Of a DNA stretch of 64,000 bases, positions 10,422 through 59,893 are shown in pieces. The translations under genes and the position numbers were made by a program. The notes below the pieces were generated by a model. It worked only from the letters and a program-made list of their open reading frames with translations. It was not told the DNA's origin and searched no databases. This stretch comes from Pseudohongiella acticola (GTDB taxonomy: Bacteria > Pseudomonadota > Gammaproteobacteria > Pseudomonadales > Pseudohongiellaceae), in contig NZ_MASR01000001.1 of NCBI RefSeq assembly GCF_001758195.1, forward strand, positions 1,922,001-1,986,000. The letters run 5' to 3'. Positions within the stretch are counted from its first letter, which is position 1. Each line of letters opens with the position of its first letter.

Positions 10422-11213
10422 CTATTTTGTTCCAACCACGGCGAACGCCGCCCCCGTTGGATCCAACCCGACAACGATAAAGTCACCACCGGGCACCTCT
10501 TGCGGCGGCATTAGCACCTGACCACCGTTTTCAGTGATCGTGGTCACCACGGCCTCTATTGACGCTACGCGGAAGTAAAACTGCCAACAGGCCACTGGTT
10601 GCTGCTCGGGTTTGTGCATCATCGCGCCAATCACGCCACCGTGACGAATGAAATCGTAGGTGCCCATCGGTCCCATGTCCATTTCGCCGTCTTTAGACCA
10701 GCCGAAGTGCTTGCTGTAGAACTCCCAGGCGGCTGTCTGATCGGTTGTGTACAATTCGTTCCAGGCACAATGGCCGATTCGGGGTTTATCTGCAGCGAAC
10801 GCCAGGCTGTGACCGCCGCTGGTATCCTGCATGATATAGAAGATCACCCCTTGCGGGTCATGGATCATGGCAAACCGCCCGATACCTGGAATATCGGTTG
10901 GCGGAATATGTTCGCCGCCGCCATCAGCCTTGACAGCTGCCACCGTGGCATCGGCATTGTCGACCCCGATATAGCCCATCCAGGCAGGCTGGGCGCCCGC
11001 CTCCAGCATGTCAGGAGTGAGTTCCATAACACCTGCTATTTCATGGCTCTCACCGGTGTCTGCGTCCTTTGCTGTAGCCAGCCAGTAGCTGAAACCGTCC
11101 ATCGCATTATCGGTATATGTCCAACCCAATATTTTGCTATAGAATTCTCTGGCCTTAGCTGAATCAGTGGTCAGCAACTCGTACCAGACAAAATCACCCT
11201 CTTTGTTACTCAT
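10422..11213 (-). CDS. tandem VOC (glyoxalase/bleomycin-resistance fold) protein
   Basis: The protein of 263 residues holds two vicinal-oxygen-chelate repeats: the first begins FVWYELLTTDSAKAREFYSK and the second (about residue 140) WNELYTTDQTAAWEFYSK. Each has the beta-alpha-beta-beta-beta arrangement used by glyoxalases, dioxygenases and thiol transferases. Substrate is unknown. Two adjacent ATG codons (11216 and 11213) are possible; the second has the better spacing from AGGAG. It lies 37 bp downstream of the DUF1428 gene and is probably transcribed with it from the promoter at 11652-11678, which matches the one in front of the DGPF operon at 58471. Confidence 0.88.
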   Translation of the reverse strand: MSNKEGDFVWYELLTTDSAKAREFYSKILGWTYTDNAMDGFSYWLATAKDADTGESHEIAGVMELTPDMLEAGAQPAWMGYIGVDNADATVAAVKADGGGEHIPPTDIPGIGRFAMIHDPQGVIFYIMQDTSGGHSLAFAADKPRIGHCAWNELYTTDQTAAWEFYSKHFGWSKDGEMDMGPMGTYDFIRHGGVIGAMMHKPEQQPVACWQFYFRVASIEAVVTTITENGGQVLMPPQEVPGGDFIVVGLDPTGAAFAVVGTK

Positions 11214-11250
11214 CATTTTTCTCCTTGATGAACGTGACGTTTTACTCCGC

Positions 11251-11616
11251 CTACAGTTCCACAACGGGCATGAAGCCACCATATATCATGCGTTTGCCGT
11301 CAAACGGCATCGGATTGGTGTTGGGGTCCATTCTGGGATCACTGCTCATGATTTCATGCAGCTTTTCCATCGCAGCGTCGCGGGTCGCCTTGTCTGGCCA
11401 TTCAATAAATGAAAACACGACTGCTTCCTCTTCAGTCGCCTTCACGGCACTGTAAAAATCCGTGACCTTGCCTTTAGGCACGTCATCCTGCCAGCATTCC
11501 AGTACGCGAACCGCGCCACACTCCATGAATATCGGGTCTGCCAGCCTGGCGTGGTCGATAAATGCCTGTTTGTTAGCTTTGGGTACCGCGAGCACAAATC
11601 CGTCAATATAAGACAT
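11251..11616 (-). CDS. DUF1428 family protein
   Basis: This 121-residue protein matches the DUF1428 family (MSYIDGFVLAVP, then FSFIEWPDKATRDAAM and FDGKRMIYGGF). Members have a dimeric alpha/beta-barrel (ferredoxin-like) fold related to YCII and ABM proteins; the function is unknown. It starts an operon with the tandem VOC gene. AGGAGA lies before the ATG. The promoter 36 bp upstream carries TGTCGA-N17-CGAC, the same pattern as in front of the sigma-factor-linked DGPF genes, so it may belong to the ECF42 regulon. Confidence 0.9.
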   Translation of the reverse strand: MSYIDGFVLAVPKANKQAFIDHARLADPIFMECGAVRVLECWQDDVPKGKVTDFYSAVKATEEEAVVFSFIEWPDKATRDAAMEKLHEIMSSDPRMDPNTNPMPFDGKRMIYGGFMPVVEL

Positions 11617-11651: not shown

Positions 11652-11678
11652 GTCGCTTGAGTAGAGCGCAAATCGACA
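11652..11678 (-). promoter_or_regulatory. putative ECF42-type promoter of the DUF1428/VOC operon
   Basis: On the minus strand TGTCGA (11678-11673) is followed after exactly 17 bp by CGAC (11655-11652). The pair lies 36 bp upstream of the DUF1428 start. The identical arrangement occurs at 58543-58517 next to the ECF sigma gene. From memory, ECF42 promoters described in Streptomyces have TGTCGA at -35 and CGA/TC at -10; that should be checked. No sigma-70 type promoter is obvious in this 144-bp gap. The sequence is seen; recognition by the sigma factor at 58551-59852 is inferred. Confidence 0.55.
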
Positions 11679-52734: not shown

Positions 52735-53355
52735 TCAGTCCTGTTTTATCAGCGCATCGTCCAGCTCATTGGCACGTTTGGCCGCCTCGCGCCCGTCCAC
52801 CCGTGCCAGGTATTCAGTGAAGGCCGGCAGGGGTTCCAGTGTTTTCTGCATGATGCCCCAGCCAATAAAGCTGCCGGCGAGCACATCAGCCGCGGTAAAT
52901 TGTTCACCACAAATGTACGGACCGTTTGCCAGCGCCAGGACCATGGCGTCAATCGCATCCTGATAATGGCCACAACCCACGGACACCGCGCTTTCATCGC
53001 TAATGTCCCAGCCAAAGGCTTTGCAGGTGGCCGCCATCTCCAGCGGCCCGGCAACAAAAAACAGCCAGCGATAGTAGGTACCGCGCAGTTTGCTGCCGGA
53101 AGGCGGTGCCAGCTTTTTCTCCGGAAACTGATCGGCCAGATAGGCACAGATCGCCGACACTTCGGTGACCACGGTGTCGCCATGTTTGATCGCCGGCACT
53201 TTCCCCATGGGGTTGATAGCGAGGTATTCCGGCGCTTTCATGCTGGCGCCGTATTCCAGCAGTTTCACATCATAGGGCACGCCCAGTTCTTCCAGCATCC
53301 AGCGCACAATGCGACCACGAGAATGGGGATGGGTATAAAACGTCAGATCAGCCAT
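52735..53355 (-). CDS. glutathione S-transferase
   Basis: The 206-residue protein has a thioredoxin-like N-terminal domain (FYTHPHSRGRIVRWMLEELG, NPMGKVPAI, VTEVSAICAYLADQFPEKKL with the Glu/Ser of the GSH site) and an alpha-helical C-terminal domain (FTAADVLAGSFIGWG). It conjugates glutathione to electrophiles. The start at 53355 has no upstream competitor. It is divergent from the WYL regulator, which may control it. Confidence 0.92.
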   Translation of the reverse strand: MADLTFYTHPHSRGRIVRWMLEELGVPYDVKLLEYGASMKAPEYLAINPMGKVPAIKHGDTVVTEVSAICAYLADQFPEKKLAPPSGSKLRGTYYRWLFFVAGPLEMAATCKAFGWDISDESAVSVGCGHYQDAIDAMVLALANGPYICGEQFTAADVLAGSFIGWGIMQKTLEPLPAFTEYLARVDGREAAKRANELDDALIKQD

Positions 53356-55378: not shown

Positions 55379-56140
55379 TTACACCTTGATCTTGTAACCG
55401 GTGCGGAAGATCCACCAGATAATGCCCAGGCATATCAGCATAAACAGGAAGATCATACCAAGGCTGAAGCCCGCGTTGACATCCGACACGCCATAAAACG
55501 CCCAGCGGAAACCACTCACCAGATACACCACCGGGTTGAACAGCGTGATGGTCTGCCACAGCGGCGGCAGCATGCTGATGGAATAAAAGCTGCCACCCAG
55601 AAAGGTCAGCGGCATCACCACCATCATCGGTACAATCTGCAGACGCTCAAAGCCATCGGCCCACACGCCCAGGATAAACCCGAACAGACAGAAAGTGACA
55701 GAAATCAGCACCAGAAAAGCCAGCATCCACAGCGGATACATCACCGTGAAATCAACAAAGAAGCGCGCCGTCAGCAGAATGATCAAGCCCAGCATCACCG
55801 ACTTGGTAGCGGCCGCACCCACATAACCCAGCACAATCTCAAAGGCCGAAATCGGCGCTGCCAGCACTTCATAGATGGTGCCGGTAAACTTGGGCATGTA
55901 AATGCCAAATGCCGAATTGTTGACACTCTCCACCAGCACTGTCAAAAGAATCAGACCCGGCACAATAAACGCCGCATAACTGATGCCGTCGATCGCTGTC
56001 ATGCGCGAACCTATGGCGGACCCGAACACAATGAAATACAGCGAGGTGGTCAGTACCGGCGAGGCAATGCTCTGAAATGCAGTACGAAAAGTACGCTTCA
56101 TCTCAAACTTGTAAATTGCTTTGATGGCCTGGAAATTCAT
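55379..56140 (-). CDS. ABC-2 type permease (YadH-like)
   Basis: The 253-residue protein has six helices and the ABC-2 pattern: [20 protein letters not shown] at the start, [12 protein letters not shown]-like region, [17 protein letters not shown] near the C-terminus. It is the membrane part of the YadGH/DrrB-type exporter. Its start overlaps the ATPase gene stop by 4 bp (ATGA), so the two are translated together. Substrate unknown. Confidence 0.9.
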
Positions 56141-57099
56141 GATGTGGCTCCTGCAGTGCGTGCCCGGGCATCATCGCTTGACACCAGACTGACAAATATC
56201 TCTTCCAGTGAACTTTGTGAGGTCTGCAGGTCGCGGAACTCAATGCCGTGGTCATACAGCGTACGCACCACCCGACCAATCTCGCCGTAGTCGCTGCGGG
56301 TATCATAGGTATACACCAGCTTGCTGCCATCATCGCTGAGCACCAGCCCATCGATGCTCAGTCCGCTCGGCAGTGCTGACAGTGGCTCCGGCAACTCCAT
56401 CACCATCTCGCGTTTTCCCAGTTTTTTCATCAGCTCGGCCTTTTCTTCCACCAGCACAATCTGACCCTTGTTGATGACACCAATACGGTCAGCCATATCT
56501 TCGGCTTCCTCGATATAGTGCGTGGTCAGAATGATGGTGACACCCTCCTCGCGCAGCTGGCGAATCATCTGCCACATGTCACGGCGCAGCTCAACATCCA
56601 CCCCCGCCGTGGGCTCATCCAGAAACAGGATCTGCGGCTGATGCGACAACGCCTTGGCAATCAGCACCCGACGCTTCATGCCACCGGACAGTGCCATGAT
56701 CTTGCTGTCTTTTTTGTCCCACAGACTGAGGCTGCGCAGCAGCTTCTCCAGATAGGCGTTGTCAGGCTTGCGGCCATACAGACCCCGCGTCAGGGTTACC
56801 GTGTCCCAGACCGACTCAAACATACTGACCGCCAACTCCTGCGGTACCAGGCCTATTTTCTTGCGCACCGGCCGATAGTCACGAATGATATCCAGGCCAT
56901 CAACTTTCAGCTCACCCTCGCCCGGATTGACCAGGCCACACAGGATGCTAATCAGCGTGGTCTTGCCGGCGCCATTGGGGCCGAGCAACGCAAAAATCTC
57001 GCCGCGCTTGATGCTCAGGTCGACGTTGTCCAGCGCCCGGAAACCTGAGGGGTACACCTTGCTCAGACCTTTGACGCTGATGATGGGTGCTTCGGTCAT
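56137..57099 (-). CDS. ABC transporter ATPase (YadG-like)
   Basis: The 320-residue protein has Walker [13 protein letters not shown], signature [15 protein letters not shown], Walker [13 protein letters not shown] and an H loop [11 protein letters not shown], followed by a C-terminal extension (about 225-320). The ATG at 57099 follows AGGAGAAAAACA; a longer frame (to 57129) was rejected. It pairs with the YadH-like permease gene. Confidence 0.93.
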
Positions 57100-57229: not shown

Positions 57230-57589
57230 TTATACTTTCGGCGGCAGTTCCCGGATCGGCCGCAGCTCAATGCTGCCCAACCGTGCCGGCGGAATATTGC
57301 CCGCCAGTTGGATAGCCTCGTTCAGGTCGCGCGCGTCGAGCAGATAGAACCCGGCCAGCTGCTCCTTTGTTTCCGCGAAGGGACCATCGGACACCAGCGT
57401 CTCGCCATTACGTACGCGCAGGGTGGTGGCGGATTCGACCGGGTGCAGCGCCTGGCCGGCAAGATAATTGCCCGTGCCGCTGAGTTTTTCCACACAACGT
57501 ATGCACTCCTGATTCAGATCCTGCCATTCCTGCTCACTCATGGCGTTAATGATGCTTTCCTGATAATACACCAGTGCCAGGTATTTCAT
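57230..57589 (-). CDS. YCII/DGPF-domain protein
   Basis: The 119-residue protein has the YCII-related fold and the DGPF motif: KYLALVYYQESIINAMSEQE, VSDGPFAETKEQLAGFYLLD. DGPF proteins accompany ECF42 sigma factors in many bacteria; their role is not known. It is the last gene of the operon that starts with the sigma factor and lies 51 bp downstream of the fused YCII-VOC gene. Confidence 0.92.
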   Translation of the reverse strand: MKYLALVYYQESIINAMSEQEWQDLNQECIRCVEKLSGTGNYLAGQALHPVESATTLRVRNGETLVSDGPFAETKEQLAGFYLLDARDLNEAIQLAGNIPPARLGSIELRPIRELPPKV

Positions 57590-57640: not shown

Positions 57641-58471
57641 TCATGCATCGGGGCTGCCCGCGTTGATCATCCAGTGAATGCCGTATTTGTCTGTCAGCAT
57701 GCCAAAGCCTTTGGCCCAGAAGGTTTCGGCAAAGGGCATGGTGGCTGAGCCACCGGCCGCCAGGTCATCAAACACCTGTCTGGCAATGGCGACATCATCA
57801 TAGTGCAGTTGCACCGAAGCACCTGCGGGTTTTTCATACATGCCCGGCGGTGCATCGGCGCCCATCAGCAGACGGCCACCCAGATTCACCGTGGCATGCA
57901 GGATTTTGTCCTGCAGAGCAGCGTCGACCTGATCTTTCATCGGTGAATCGGCATAGGCCAGCATGAAGGTGACCTCACCTGACAACACCTCGGCATAAAA
58001 CGCCATGGCTTCGCGGCAATCACCATTAAACGATAAATGCGTGGAGATGCTGGTGGGCTGACGCGCCAGACGCCGCTGCGCGCGTTTGTGTTTTTCGATG
58101 CCCTCGCCTTCAACAAAATCTTCCATCTCGAACAGCACACGCAGTTCCAGGGTCACGTTGCCGTCGCTGTCCATGCGCGGCCACTTTTTGGCCCAGGTAA
58201 TGGCCTCATCCATTGACGCCACGTTGATCATGGTAAACCCGGCCAGCAGTTCCCTGGTTTCCGCGAAAGGCCCATCAATCACCGTAGGCTCACCGTCTTT
58301 AAATTGCACTCGTGCGCCGGTTGAAGTGGGTTTCAGACCGGTGCCGTCAATCAGAATGCCAGCGTTCAACATCTGTTCATTGTAATCGGCCATCGCCTGC
58401 AACATGTCGTCTGAGGGCATGACACCATTCTCGGTGTCGGTATCGGCCTTGCGCATTATCATTACTTTCAT
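57641..58471 (-). CDS. fused YCII/DGPF and PhnB-like VOC protein
   Basis: The 276-residue protein is a fusion. Residues 1-125 are a YCII domain (VMIMRKADTDTENG, TVIDGPFAETRELLAGFTMI). Residues 140-276 are a PhnB/3-demethylubiquinone-like VOC domain (STHLSFNGDCREAMAFYAE, FAETFWAKGFGMLTDKYGIH). Fusing two dimeric alpha/beta folds in one chain is unusual. A promoter matching ECF42 sites lies 46 bp upstream, so it is likely controlled by the neighbouring sigma factor. Confidence 0.92.
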   Translation of the reverse strand: MKVMIMRKADTDTENGVMPSDDMLQAMADYNEQMLNAGILIDGTGLKPTSTGARVQFKDGEPTVIDGPFAETRELLAGFTMINVASMDEAITWAKKWPRMDSDGNVTLELRVLFEMEDFVEGEGIEKHKRAQRRLARQPTSISTHLSFNGDCREAMAFYAEVLSGEVTFMLAYADSPMKDQVDAALQDKILHATVNLGGRLLMGADAPPGMYEKPAGASVQLHYDDVAIARQVFDDLAAGGSATMPFAETFWAKGFGMLTDKYGIHWMINAGSPDA

Positions 58472-58550: not shown

Positions 58551-59852
58551 TCAAACTTTTTTTGCGATGCCAGTCAGGGCCGCCAGCCGCGCCTGCAAAA
58601 ACGCCCGTTCCGGTGCCTGCTCGGTCAGGGCCAGCGCCTTTTCATAAGCGTCACGGGCCGCAGCACCGTTGCCCATGCGGCGATAGAAGTCAGCGCGCGC
58701 GGCATGCAGCAGATGATAATTCTGCAGCCGACCGGCGCTGGCCAGTTCATCCACCAGCTGCAGGCCGGCTTCGGGGCCGTCAACCATGGCCACCGCCACT
58801 GCCCGGTTCAGGGCGATGACCGGCGAGGGCGACAATCGGTACAGGGCGTCATACAGACCTACAATCTGGCGCCAGTCGGTATCCTGATAACTGGCGGCCT
58901 GCGCATGCAACGCAGCTATCGCCGCCTGCAATGTGTAAATACCTGCTGGCCCCTGCGTCAACGCACGGTTCAGGCATTGCACACCCTCGGCTATCTGGGC
59001 ATGGTTCCAGCGCTGACGATCCTGCTCCTCCAACGTGATCAGGCGACCGGTGTCATCCTGCCGCGCAGCCCGGCGGGAATCCTGCAACAGCAGCAACGCC
59101 AGCAAGCCGGTGATGTCAGCGCGTTGCGACGGGTTGGGCGCCTCTGTTTGCGAAAATGTCTGCAACATCGACTGTAATAGCGCTTGCAACAAACGGGTCA
59201 GGCGTATGGCTTCCGCCGCCAGGTCGACGTTGACGATCACATCACCCTGACTGCTGGAATAGGCCTCGTTGAACATCAGGTAGATCACCTGCAATACCGC
59301 GTTCAGCCGTGCGGGCAGCGCCTCGGCATCCGGGACTTCATAGGGAATACCGGCATCGCGGATCTTGCGTTTGGCACGCACAATGCGCTGCGCCACGGTT
59401 GACGGCTGCTGCAGCAGACCACGCGCCACCTGCTCCGTGGTCAGACCACACATCTCGCGCAGGGTCATGGCCAGCTGGGTTTCCGTCGCCAGGGCAGGAT
59501 GGCAACAGGTGAAAATCAGACGCAGACGGTCGTCTTCAATGCCGGGAGCATCGTAGTCAAGCTCAGCGGCTTCGTCTTCCGGCTCTTCCTGATCCGCCAG
59601 CAGCGGTGCATAACGCCGGGCGGTCTGATTACGCCGTATCTGGTCAATGGCGCGAAAACGGCCGGTGCTGATCAGCCAGGCGGTGGGATTGGCGGGCACA
59701 CCGTCCTGCGCCCACTGCTGCAGCGCCAGAGCAAAAGCCTCATGCATGGCTTCTTCCGCCAGCTCAAACTCGCCCAGTAGCCGGATCAGCGTCGCCAGTA
59801 TGCGACGGGAGTGATTCTGATAAAGTGTATCCAGCTCGCTGGCTACCGACAT
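58551..59852 (-). CDS. ECF42-type RNA polymerase sigma factor
   Basis: The 433-residue protein has sigma-70 region 2 (about 10-75: LIRLLGEFELAEEAMHEAFA, WLISTGRFRAIDQIRR) and region 4 (about 110-170: LTTEQVARGLLQQPSTVAQR), then a long C-terminal extension (about 180-433) with a DUF6596-like part and TPR-like helices (AARDAYEKALALTEQAPERAF). This plan plus the adjacent DGPF genes is typical of group ECF42, in which no anti-sigma factor is known and the extension is needed for activity. The ATG at 59852 gives the family-typical start. Confidence 0.92.
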   Translation of the reverse strand: MSVASELDTLYQNHSRRILATLIRLLGEFELAEEAMHEAFALALQQWAQDGVPANPTAWLISTGRFRAIDQIRRNQTARRYAPLLADQEEPEDEAAELDYDAPGIEDDRLRLIFTCCHPALATETQLAMTLREMCGLTTEQVARGLLQQPSTVAQRIVRAKRKIRDAGIPYEVPDAEALPARLNAVLQVIYLMFNEAYSSSQGDVIVNVDLAAEAIRLTRLLQALLQSMLQTFSQTEAPNPSQRADITGLLALLLLQDSRRAARQDDTGRLITLEEQDRQRWNHAQIAEGVQCLNRALTQGPAGIYTLQAAIAALHAQAASYQDTDWRQIVGLYDALYRLSPSPVIALNRAVAVAMVDGPEAGLQLVDELASAGRLQNYHLLHAARADFYRRMGNGAAARDAYEKALALTEQAPERAFLQARLAALTGIAKKV

Positions 59853-59893
59853 GGCCCCTTCCCTGCTTTGCTTGCCGTAGATCACTGCCTATA

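Follow-up and report, generated by a model that had tools for sequence, protein, structure and literature searches.

Does an ECF42 sigma factor serve only the genes beside it, or does its reach extend to an operon 47 kb away? The question is raised by a 64,000-nucleotide stretch of the Pseudohongiella acticola genome (contig NZ_MASR01000001.1, positions 1,922,001 to 1,986,000; hereafter the window), in which the same promoter-like sequence, TGTCGA-N17-CGAC, stands both beside an ECF42 gene (site P1) and before a gene of the DUF1428 family (site P2). We take the ECF42 promoter consensus to be TGTCGA with a -10 element CG[A/T]C; the original prediction, made from the window by itself, gave the latter as CGA-TC, which is wrong, both forms of CG[A/T]C being seen at DUF1428 sites. 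Here we argue, with a probability of about 0.88, that RNA polymerase with the ECF42 factor encoded at 58551-59885 uses P2 (11652-11678) as a promoter, a reading that draws on comparison of sequences across genomes.

The sigma factor locus and the two sites

The sigma factor gene (58551-59885, minus strand) starts with GTG, an ATG at 59852 being also possible, and its 444-residue product has, as is typical of ECF factors, only the Sigma70_r2 and Sigma70_r4_2 domains in Pfam and no sigma3. These are followed by a C-terminal extension of about 200 residues and TPR character, with DUF6596 at residues 193-308 (E 6.4e-28) and a TPR-like tail that is weak, the TPR_21 match at 394-438 falling under its cut-off. 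P1 (58517-58543, minus strand) lies 7 bp past the stop codon of this gene, and its -10 end is 45 bp from the ATG of a gene encoding a DGPF-type YCII domain fused to a 3-dmu-9_3-mt/VOC domain (57641-58471, Pfam). A second DGPF-type YCII gene (57230-57589, Pfam) comes next, so that two YCII genes follow the sigma gene on the same strand. Beyond them, an ABC transporter ATPase (56137-57099, minus strand) and its partner, an ABC-2 type permease (55379-56140, minus strand), may be further members of the P1 unit. No anti-sigma family was found with Pfam among those neighbours of the sigma gene whose proteins were scanned.

The site between ECF42 and YCII recurs in four other genomes (G014, G029, G039, G087), and the corresponding gap in G011 holds TGTCGA-N17-CGAT, with one -10 change. 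The window ATPase is 70% identical to an ABC gene of G029 (L343) before which, at a distance of 49 bp, stands an ECF42-type site, and in G014 a site occurs 313 bp before a gene whose start resembles that of the window ABC gene (L270). Before the window ABC gene itself, and before a GST gene (52735-53355), no such site was found with up to two mismatches allowed; nor, allowing one -35 mismatch, was the motif found in the 315 bp before ECF42 or between the genes of either unit. The other YCII gene of the genome (G000:C1:384183, L014) showed no motif by eye in its 350 bp upstream.

P2 (11652-11678, minus strand; -35 at 11678-11673, -10 at 11655-11652) precedes the DUF1428 gene, as first noted, with TGTCGA and CGAC 17 bp apart and the -10 end 35 bp from the ATG. 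The gene (11251-11616, minus strand) encodes a clear YbaA-like protein (Pfam PF07237, 143.3 bits against a cut-off of 27, E 3.4e-42; related solved structure 2okq, YbaA, E 1.6e-38). A gap of 34 bp separates it from a gene for a tandem glyoxalase/VOC protein with two Pfam Glyoxalase stretches (10422-11216, minus strand), and from spacing and strand we infer that the two form one operon. The related dimeric alpha/beta-barrel folds that had been ascribed to the genes behind the two sites may suit DUF1428 and YCII, though not VOC.

Conservation before DUF1428 within the genus

We compared 15 genomes of the window's genus, examining the best DUF1428 match in each. A close DUF1428 gene was found in 11, six of which have ECF42. 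Five of these six (G000, G007, G009, G011, G012) carry the exact motif before DUF1428, although G007 and G009 are nearly identical in this region and are not independent, and the sixth (G014) carries it with one mismatch. The motif was absent before DUF1428 from all five genomes without ECF42 (G001, G002, G004, G008, G010), even with one mismatch allowed. In a 124-bp stretch compared between G000 and G011, all 10 fixed bases agree, against 62 of the 114 other positions. The comparison called for at the outset, between relatives that have or lack the sigma gene, thus favours the prediction: the motif is kept before DUF1428 and tracks the sigma gene (5/6 versus 0/5).

Association with ECF42 beyond the genus

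From 582 confirmed named DUF1428 loci we took the best 80, a sample that therefore leans to close relatives of the window protein; by record titles it includes Xanthomonas, Stenotrophomonas, Lysobacter, Burkholderiales, Marinobacter, Parahaliea, Aestuariicella and Alphaproteobacteria. Within 250 bp upstream, TGTCGA-N17-CG[AT]C was present in sense orientation at 33 of these best 80 loci and in antisense orientation at none. Other spacers (12-16, 18, 19, 21-23) gave 0-2 loci each in the same 80, except for a spacer of 20 with five, probably an echo of CGTCGTC. The 17-bp spacer was itself rare elsewhere at these 80 loci (none in the gene body, one at 750-1000 bp upstream). Distances from the -10 end to the ATG ranged from 34 to 133 bp at the DUF1428 sites of the best 80, and the -10 element was CGTC in 28 of the 33 and CGAC in five.

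With ECF42 scored in the 80 genomes through its DUF6596 domain, it was present in 30 of the 33 genomes whose locus has the exact motif, versus 13 of the 47 others (best 80 of 582). A larger set of 136 DUF1428 genes comprised 38 with motif and ECF42, three with the motif only, 29 with ECF42 only (one gene, L094 and L187, being counted twice among these, without motif and with ECF42) and 66 with neither (Fisher p 5e-12), and 45, 3, 22 and 66, respectively, when one -35 mismatch was allowed. The relative and class draws alone (58 genes) gave 10, 0, 16 and 32 (p 1e-4); both tests ignore descent, and dereplication is incomplete. Left out before counting were L034 (19 bp upstream only), L102 (the same gene as L020), and L152 and L175 (the same genomes as G009 and G087). 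Five loci with uncertain start codons were kept (L033, L038, L046, L048, L108), L038 (G039) being scored as lacking the motif on account of an N at the -35 place. The motif counts cover fetched loci, which leaves outside them further DUF1428 matches in G002, G008, G024, G029, G038, G039, G046, G049, G052, G131, G185, G248, G303 and G350.

A few records in this collection deserve comment. The frame of the DUF1428 gene behind the exact motif is shifted or broken at L046 and L329 (G029:C9). The title 'Verrucomicrobiaceae' of L175 looks doubtful, as this record shares the site of G087, which is placed in the window's order; so does the title Bacillus subtilis of L209, where the motif precedes DUF1428 and the genome has ECF42. 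The DUF1428 gene of Sinorhizobium meliloti Ak57 has TGTCGG-N17-CGTC 35 bp upstream (L017:2439-2465), in a record labelled pSymB, yet 3.7 Mb long and containing rpoD.

The motif follows the sigma factor in the larger set as well: 38 of the 41 motif-bearing genes lie in ECF42 genomes, versus 29 of the 95 without it. For the three exceptions (L139, L194, L210), a recent loss of ECF42, a gap in the assembly or the action of a different sigma factor could each be the explanation; a repeated search of the L139 and L194 genomes with the whole ECF42 protein gave no full-length match. Conversely, the exact direct motif is absent from 29 of the 67 DUF1428 genes in ECF42 genomes, of which seven have it with one mismatch and at least six others belong to an ECF42 cluster in which such a site is present.

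Descent was addressed with a tree of 104 DUF1428 proteins (124 columns), which is poorly resolved. Over all branches of the best tree, 26 independent pairs differ in ECF42, and the exact motif differs in the same direction in about 10.7 of them and in the opposite direction in 1 (median p 0.006); with one mismatch allowed, the figures are about 12.8 and 0 (median p 0.0002). Well-supported branches offer six pairs, with on average 2.2 (exact) or 3.5 (one mismatch) in the same direction and 0.0 opposite, too few for significance. Promoter and sigma factor are thus conserved together across the tree, although on well-supported branches alone the effect is not significant.

The -10 variant and gene order

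The -10 box differs between genomes, being CGAC in some and CGTC in others, and within a genome its form is the same at the ECF42 locus and at DUF1428. This held in all 18 genomes (12 CGTC, six CGAC) in which a site at the ECF42 locus could be attributed to a gene for YCII, tandem VOC or ECF42 and a separate DUF1428 site was present; the window genome belongs to the CGAC group, a mismatch in the -35 of the DUF1428 site was allowed in G014, G335 and G461, and G011, with CGAT at its ECF42 locus, lies outside the count. The forms also agree in seven genomes whose ECF42-locus site is unassigned (G419, G462, G474, G476, G479, G481, G486). The agreement is confounded with lineage, which accounts for part of it. 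We also looked for a sigma factor residue that tracks the choice of CGAC or CGTC: no alignment column fully separates the two groups, and the best columns follow lineage.

Of the explanations other than an ECF42 promoter, the one that survives best is that another ECF sigma factor, of similar preference, reads what is a genuine promoter, with ECF42 merely co-occurring. The three motif-bearing genes in genomes without detected ECF42 would fit this, as would the other ECF factors that weak matches of the ECF42 protein reveal in the genomes. Against it, the same motif heads the YCII genes beside ECF42 with the same -10 variant in each genome, and the promoters listed for the S. meliloti ECF42 factor RpoE10 read TGTCGG-N17-CGTC (PMC6180224, Table 1); we regard this explanation as improbable.

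Gene order at the ECF42 loci suggests rearrangement. Among 54 such loci, annotated via similarity, a common order is promoter, YCII, ECF42, some loci being without a site. DUF1428 occurs on the same strand within the ECF42 neighbourhood in nine genomes (G009, G012, G064, G110, G239, G334, G365, G408, G454), and likewise near ECF42 in Aestuariicella (L412), Marinobacter (L413), Hyphomicrobiaceae (L409), Stenotrophomonas (L407) and Xanthomonas (L396). In four of these (G009, G012, Marinobacter, Aestuariicella) ECF42 is followed by the promoter, then by DUF1428 and the tandem VOC gene, and at a greater distance by YCII, Aestuariicella having in addition a BNR gene before the promoter and an extra YCII gene before ECF42; in G007, DUF1428 directly follows ECF42. 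Since the same kinds of genes are clustered in these relatives and lie in two units in the window, an ancestral cluster may have split, or two units may have joined elsewhere, the pattern being compatible with either direction. A transporter gene that flanks the window's DUF1428 unit is shared only with G011 (88% identical) among 11 loci tried.

From the window one might expect the tandem VOC gene to be a constant partner of motif-bearing DUF1428 genes. This was not borne out: it follows DUF1428 at three of 30 motif loci and at eight of 46 loci without the motif. The claim that the regulon includes tandem VOC proteins stands to the extent that the window's gene would be reached from P2 as second gene of the operon, and fails for such genes as general companions of DUF1428. 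In Parahaliea (G468, L297), a tandem-VOC homologue is itself preceded, at 39 bp, by an ECF42-type site.

Operator or accident

The motif might also be the two-fold operator of a classical regulator, given that GTCG and CGAC are reverse complements and, in the CGAC form, make up an inverted repeat, GTCG-N18-CGAC. The symmetry is broken, however, by the CGTC of 28 of the 33 DUF1428 sites (best 80 of 582), and even at the five CGAC sites of that sample the next base is T in four and A in one, where symmetry with the leading T needs A. The fixed spacing, the 34-133 bp to the ATG and the tie to the sigma gene fit a promoter, and an operator is in our view highly unlikely.

How far the number of matches can serve as evidence depends on the scale at which they are counted. 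The window has exactly two matches to TGTCGA-N17-CGAC on both strands, as had been claimed, versus 0.06 expected from dinucleotide shuffles, one in 100 of which had two or more. Genome-wide, there are 13 matches versus 14 for a reversed control, and four for the CGTC form, each under a long open frame, versus 17 for its control. As this is the level of chance, the window count by itself proves little and we do not treat it as significant; the evidence lies in position and conservation. Nine of the 13 genomic sites lie within larger open frames, and under a stricter rule the two window sites are the only ones that do not. By the looser rule, sites 49 bp before a gene for a PEGA/FGE-sulfatase protein (L008) and 68 bp before cstA (CstA, L013) are also clear of larger frames, and another (L009) lies 45 bp before a 246-residue frame and within an upstream frame. 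A full-genome search of the kind proposed as a check showed no enrichment overall, with the two window sites as the only exact sites in the genome before DUF1428, YCII or VOC-type genes.

Accident, with one or both matches fortuitous and the DUF1428 operon under an ordinary promoter, would agree with this genome-wide count, most of whose matches lie inside genes, but we give it very little credence in view of the conservation of the motif before the same gene in relatives, its specificity of spacer and strand at the best 80 of 582 loci, its association with ECF42 among 136 genes, and the sigma-70-like matches in the region, which are at chance level (two found versus 1.5 expected in shuffles).

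Further candidate targets

To the extent that the motif marks ECF42 promoters, other genes behind it are candidates for the same control. Across G000 and nine other ECF42 genomes we examined 111 exact sites, of which 44 overlap no other open frame. Among the genes that follow, Pfam identifies members of AHSA1 (L251, L253, L287, L299), Polyketide_cyc2 (L282), YCII (L276, L281, L319, L333), VOC types (L261, L297, L342), GST (L275, L283, L322), BNR-repeat proteins (L305, L314, L323) and ABC ATPases (L343), with more distant sites before GFA (L280, 161 bp) and DUF899 (L292, 210 bp) genes. Sites before such families, including the DUF1428 sites, L007 and L265, number 32 of the 111, and 28 of them are clear of other frames (the exceptions being L249, L280, L282 and L314). 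Other clear sites precede unrelated genes, for example luciferase-like (L293), phosphorylase-like (L330), kinase (L341), CstA (L013) and PEGA (L008).

Because some of these families were found through the sites themselves, a fairer count is limited to families that the window or the S. meliloti gene SMb20475 defines. In the nine other ECF42 genomes, 15 of 98 exact sites have a gene of the DUF1428, YCII, tandem-VOC or SMb20475-like kind 10-250 bp downstream, versus none of 30 spacer-20 control sites fetched from 104 found (p 0.02).

Two local patterns were seen along the way. In G012, G007, G014, G011 and G029, ECF42-type sites stand 45-92 bp before genes of a family whose proteins start with GT[RK]KG (L305, L314, L320, L323, L337), and BNR repeats are present in the three members scanned (L305, L314, L323). 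In G014 (contig C20), a pair of nearly identical ECF42-type sites, separated by 2 kb, precedes GST-like starts, one of which is seemingly broken (L321, L322), perhaps through local duplication.

We lean towards the view that proteobacterial ECF42 is no mere local switch of DGPF genes and heads a scattered regulon for the handling of small molecules, whose genes move between the cluster and many loci while keeping their promoter. Its members in that case would be DUF1428/YbaA, YCII, single and tandem VOC, AHSA1/SRPBCC, GST and BNR-repeat proteins and an ABC exporter.

A model for the window

Because the motif stands before DUF1428 almost only in those sampled genomes that have ECF42, the DUF1428-VOC operon is very probably a target activated by this factor. 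We envisage that ECF42, once activated (published work sees its TPR-type C-terminal part as probably under the control of a further protein), would direct transcription from P1 of the YCII-VOC fusion, YCII and perhaps the ABC exporter, and from P2 of DUF1428 and the tandem VOC gene. Going by family names, both units probably encode enzymes that bind small molecules or modify them.

The joint substrate range of the YCII, VOC, DUF1428, AHSA1 and GST families would give a lead to the signal that ECF42 factors sense. The shared promoter also ties DUF1428 (YbaA), an uncharacterised family, to ECF42 in the sampled proteobacterial genomes and names more candidate targets.

Comparison with known systems

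The ECF42 factors of Streptomyces venezuelae, the subject of a 2018 study by Liu that PMC8999054 cites, are said to act on DGPF/YCII targets beside the sigma gene through a promoter with TGTCGA and CG[A/T]C. Whereas those targets are reported to be DGPF genes, the window adds DUF1428 and VOC genes 47 kb away. Escherichia coli YbaA (2okq) belongs to the same DUF1428 family as the product of 11251-11616; the E. coli control genomes differ from the window in that DUF1428 was found in them and the ECF42 domain DUF6596 was not.

Several published ECF42 factors bear on the proposal. The TPR-rich extension of ECF42 is described as essential and probably regulated through protein interaction (PMC8999054), and ECF-10 of Pseudomonas putida (Tettmann 2014), an ECF42 factor tied to antibiotic and oxidative stress, is said to have a gene neighbourhood that resembles that of RpoE10 (PMC8999054, PMC6180224). 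Within the portions of the literature searched, whose scope excluded the 2019 ECF41/42 paper, the 2018 ECF42 paper, the ECF-10 paper and the 2021 ECF reclassification, no link between DUF1428 and ECF42 was found.

The nearest parallel is RpoE10 of S. meliloti. In the parts of PMC6180224 drawn on here, overexpression of this ECF42 factor raises six genes, four of which form the operons SMc01149-SMc01148 and SMb20475-SMb20474, the latter unlinked, with ECF42-type TGTCGG motifs at mapped transcript starts. The same parts leave two of the six induced genes unnamed and name no DUF1428 target, in which RpoE10 differs from the factor studied here. SMb20474 was considered as a DUF1428 protein and rejected, being a 73-residue protein without likeness to that family by eye; SMb20475 is a VOC protein that resembles one behind a motif of G014 (L261). 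The idea that DUF1428 and tandem VOC proteins are not usual ECF42 targets needs tempering, as an unlinked VOC target is already published (SMb20475, PMC6180224) and DUF1428 genes lie inside many of the ECF42 clusters that we fetched. An unlinked VOC target of ECF42 is prior art to that extent, and the operon behind P2 is likely an added member of the regulon and no new kind of system, comparable to S. meliloti in both the ECF42 factor and the unlinked operon with a glyoxalase-like product (SMb20475-SMb20474; PMC6180224, in the parts drawn on here).
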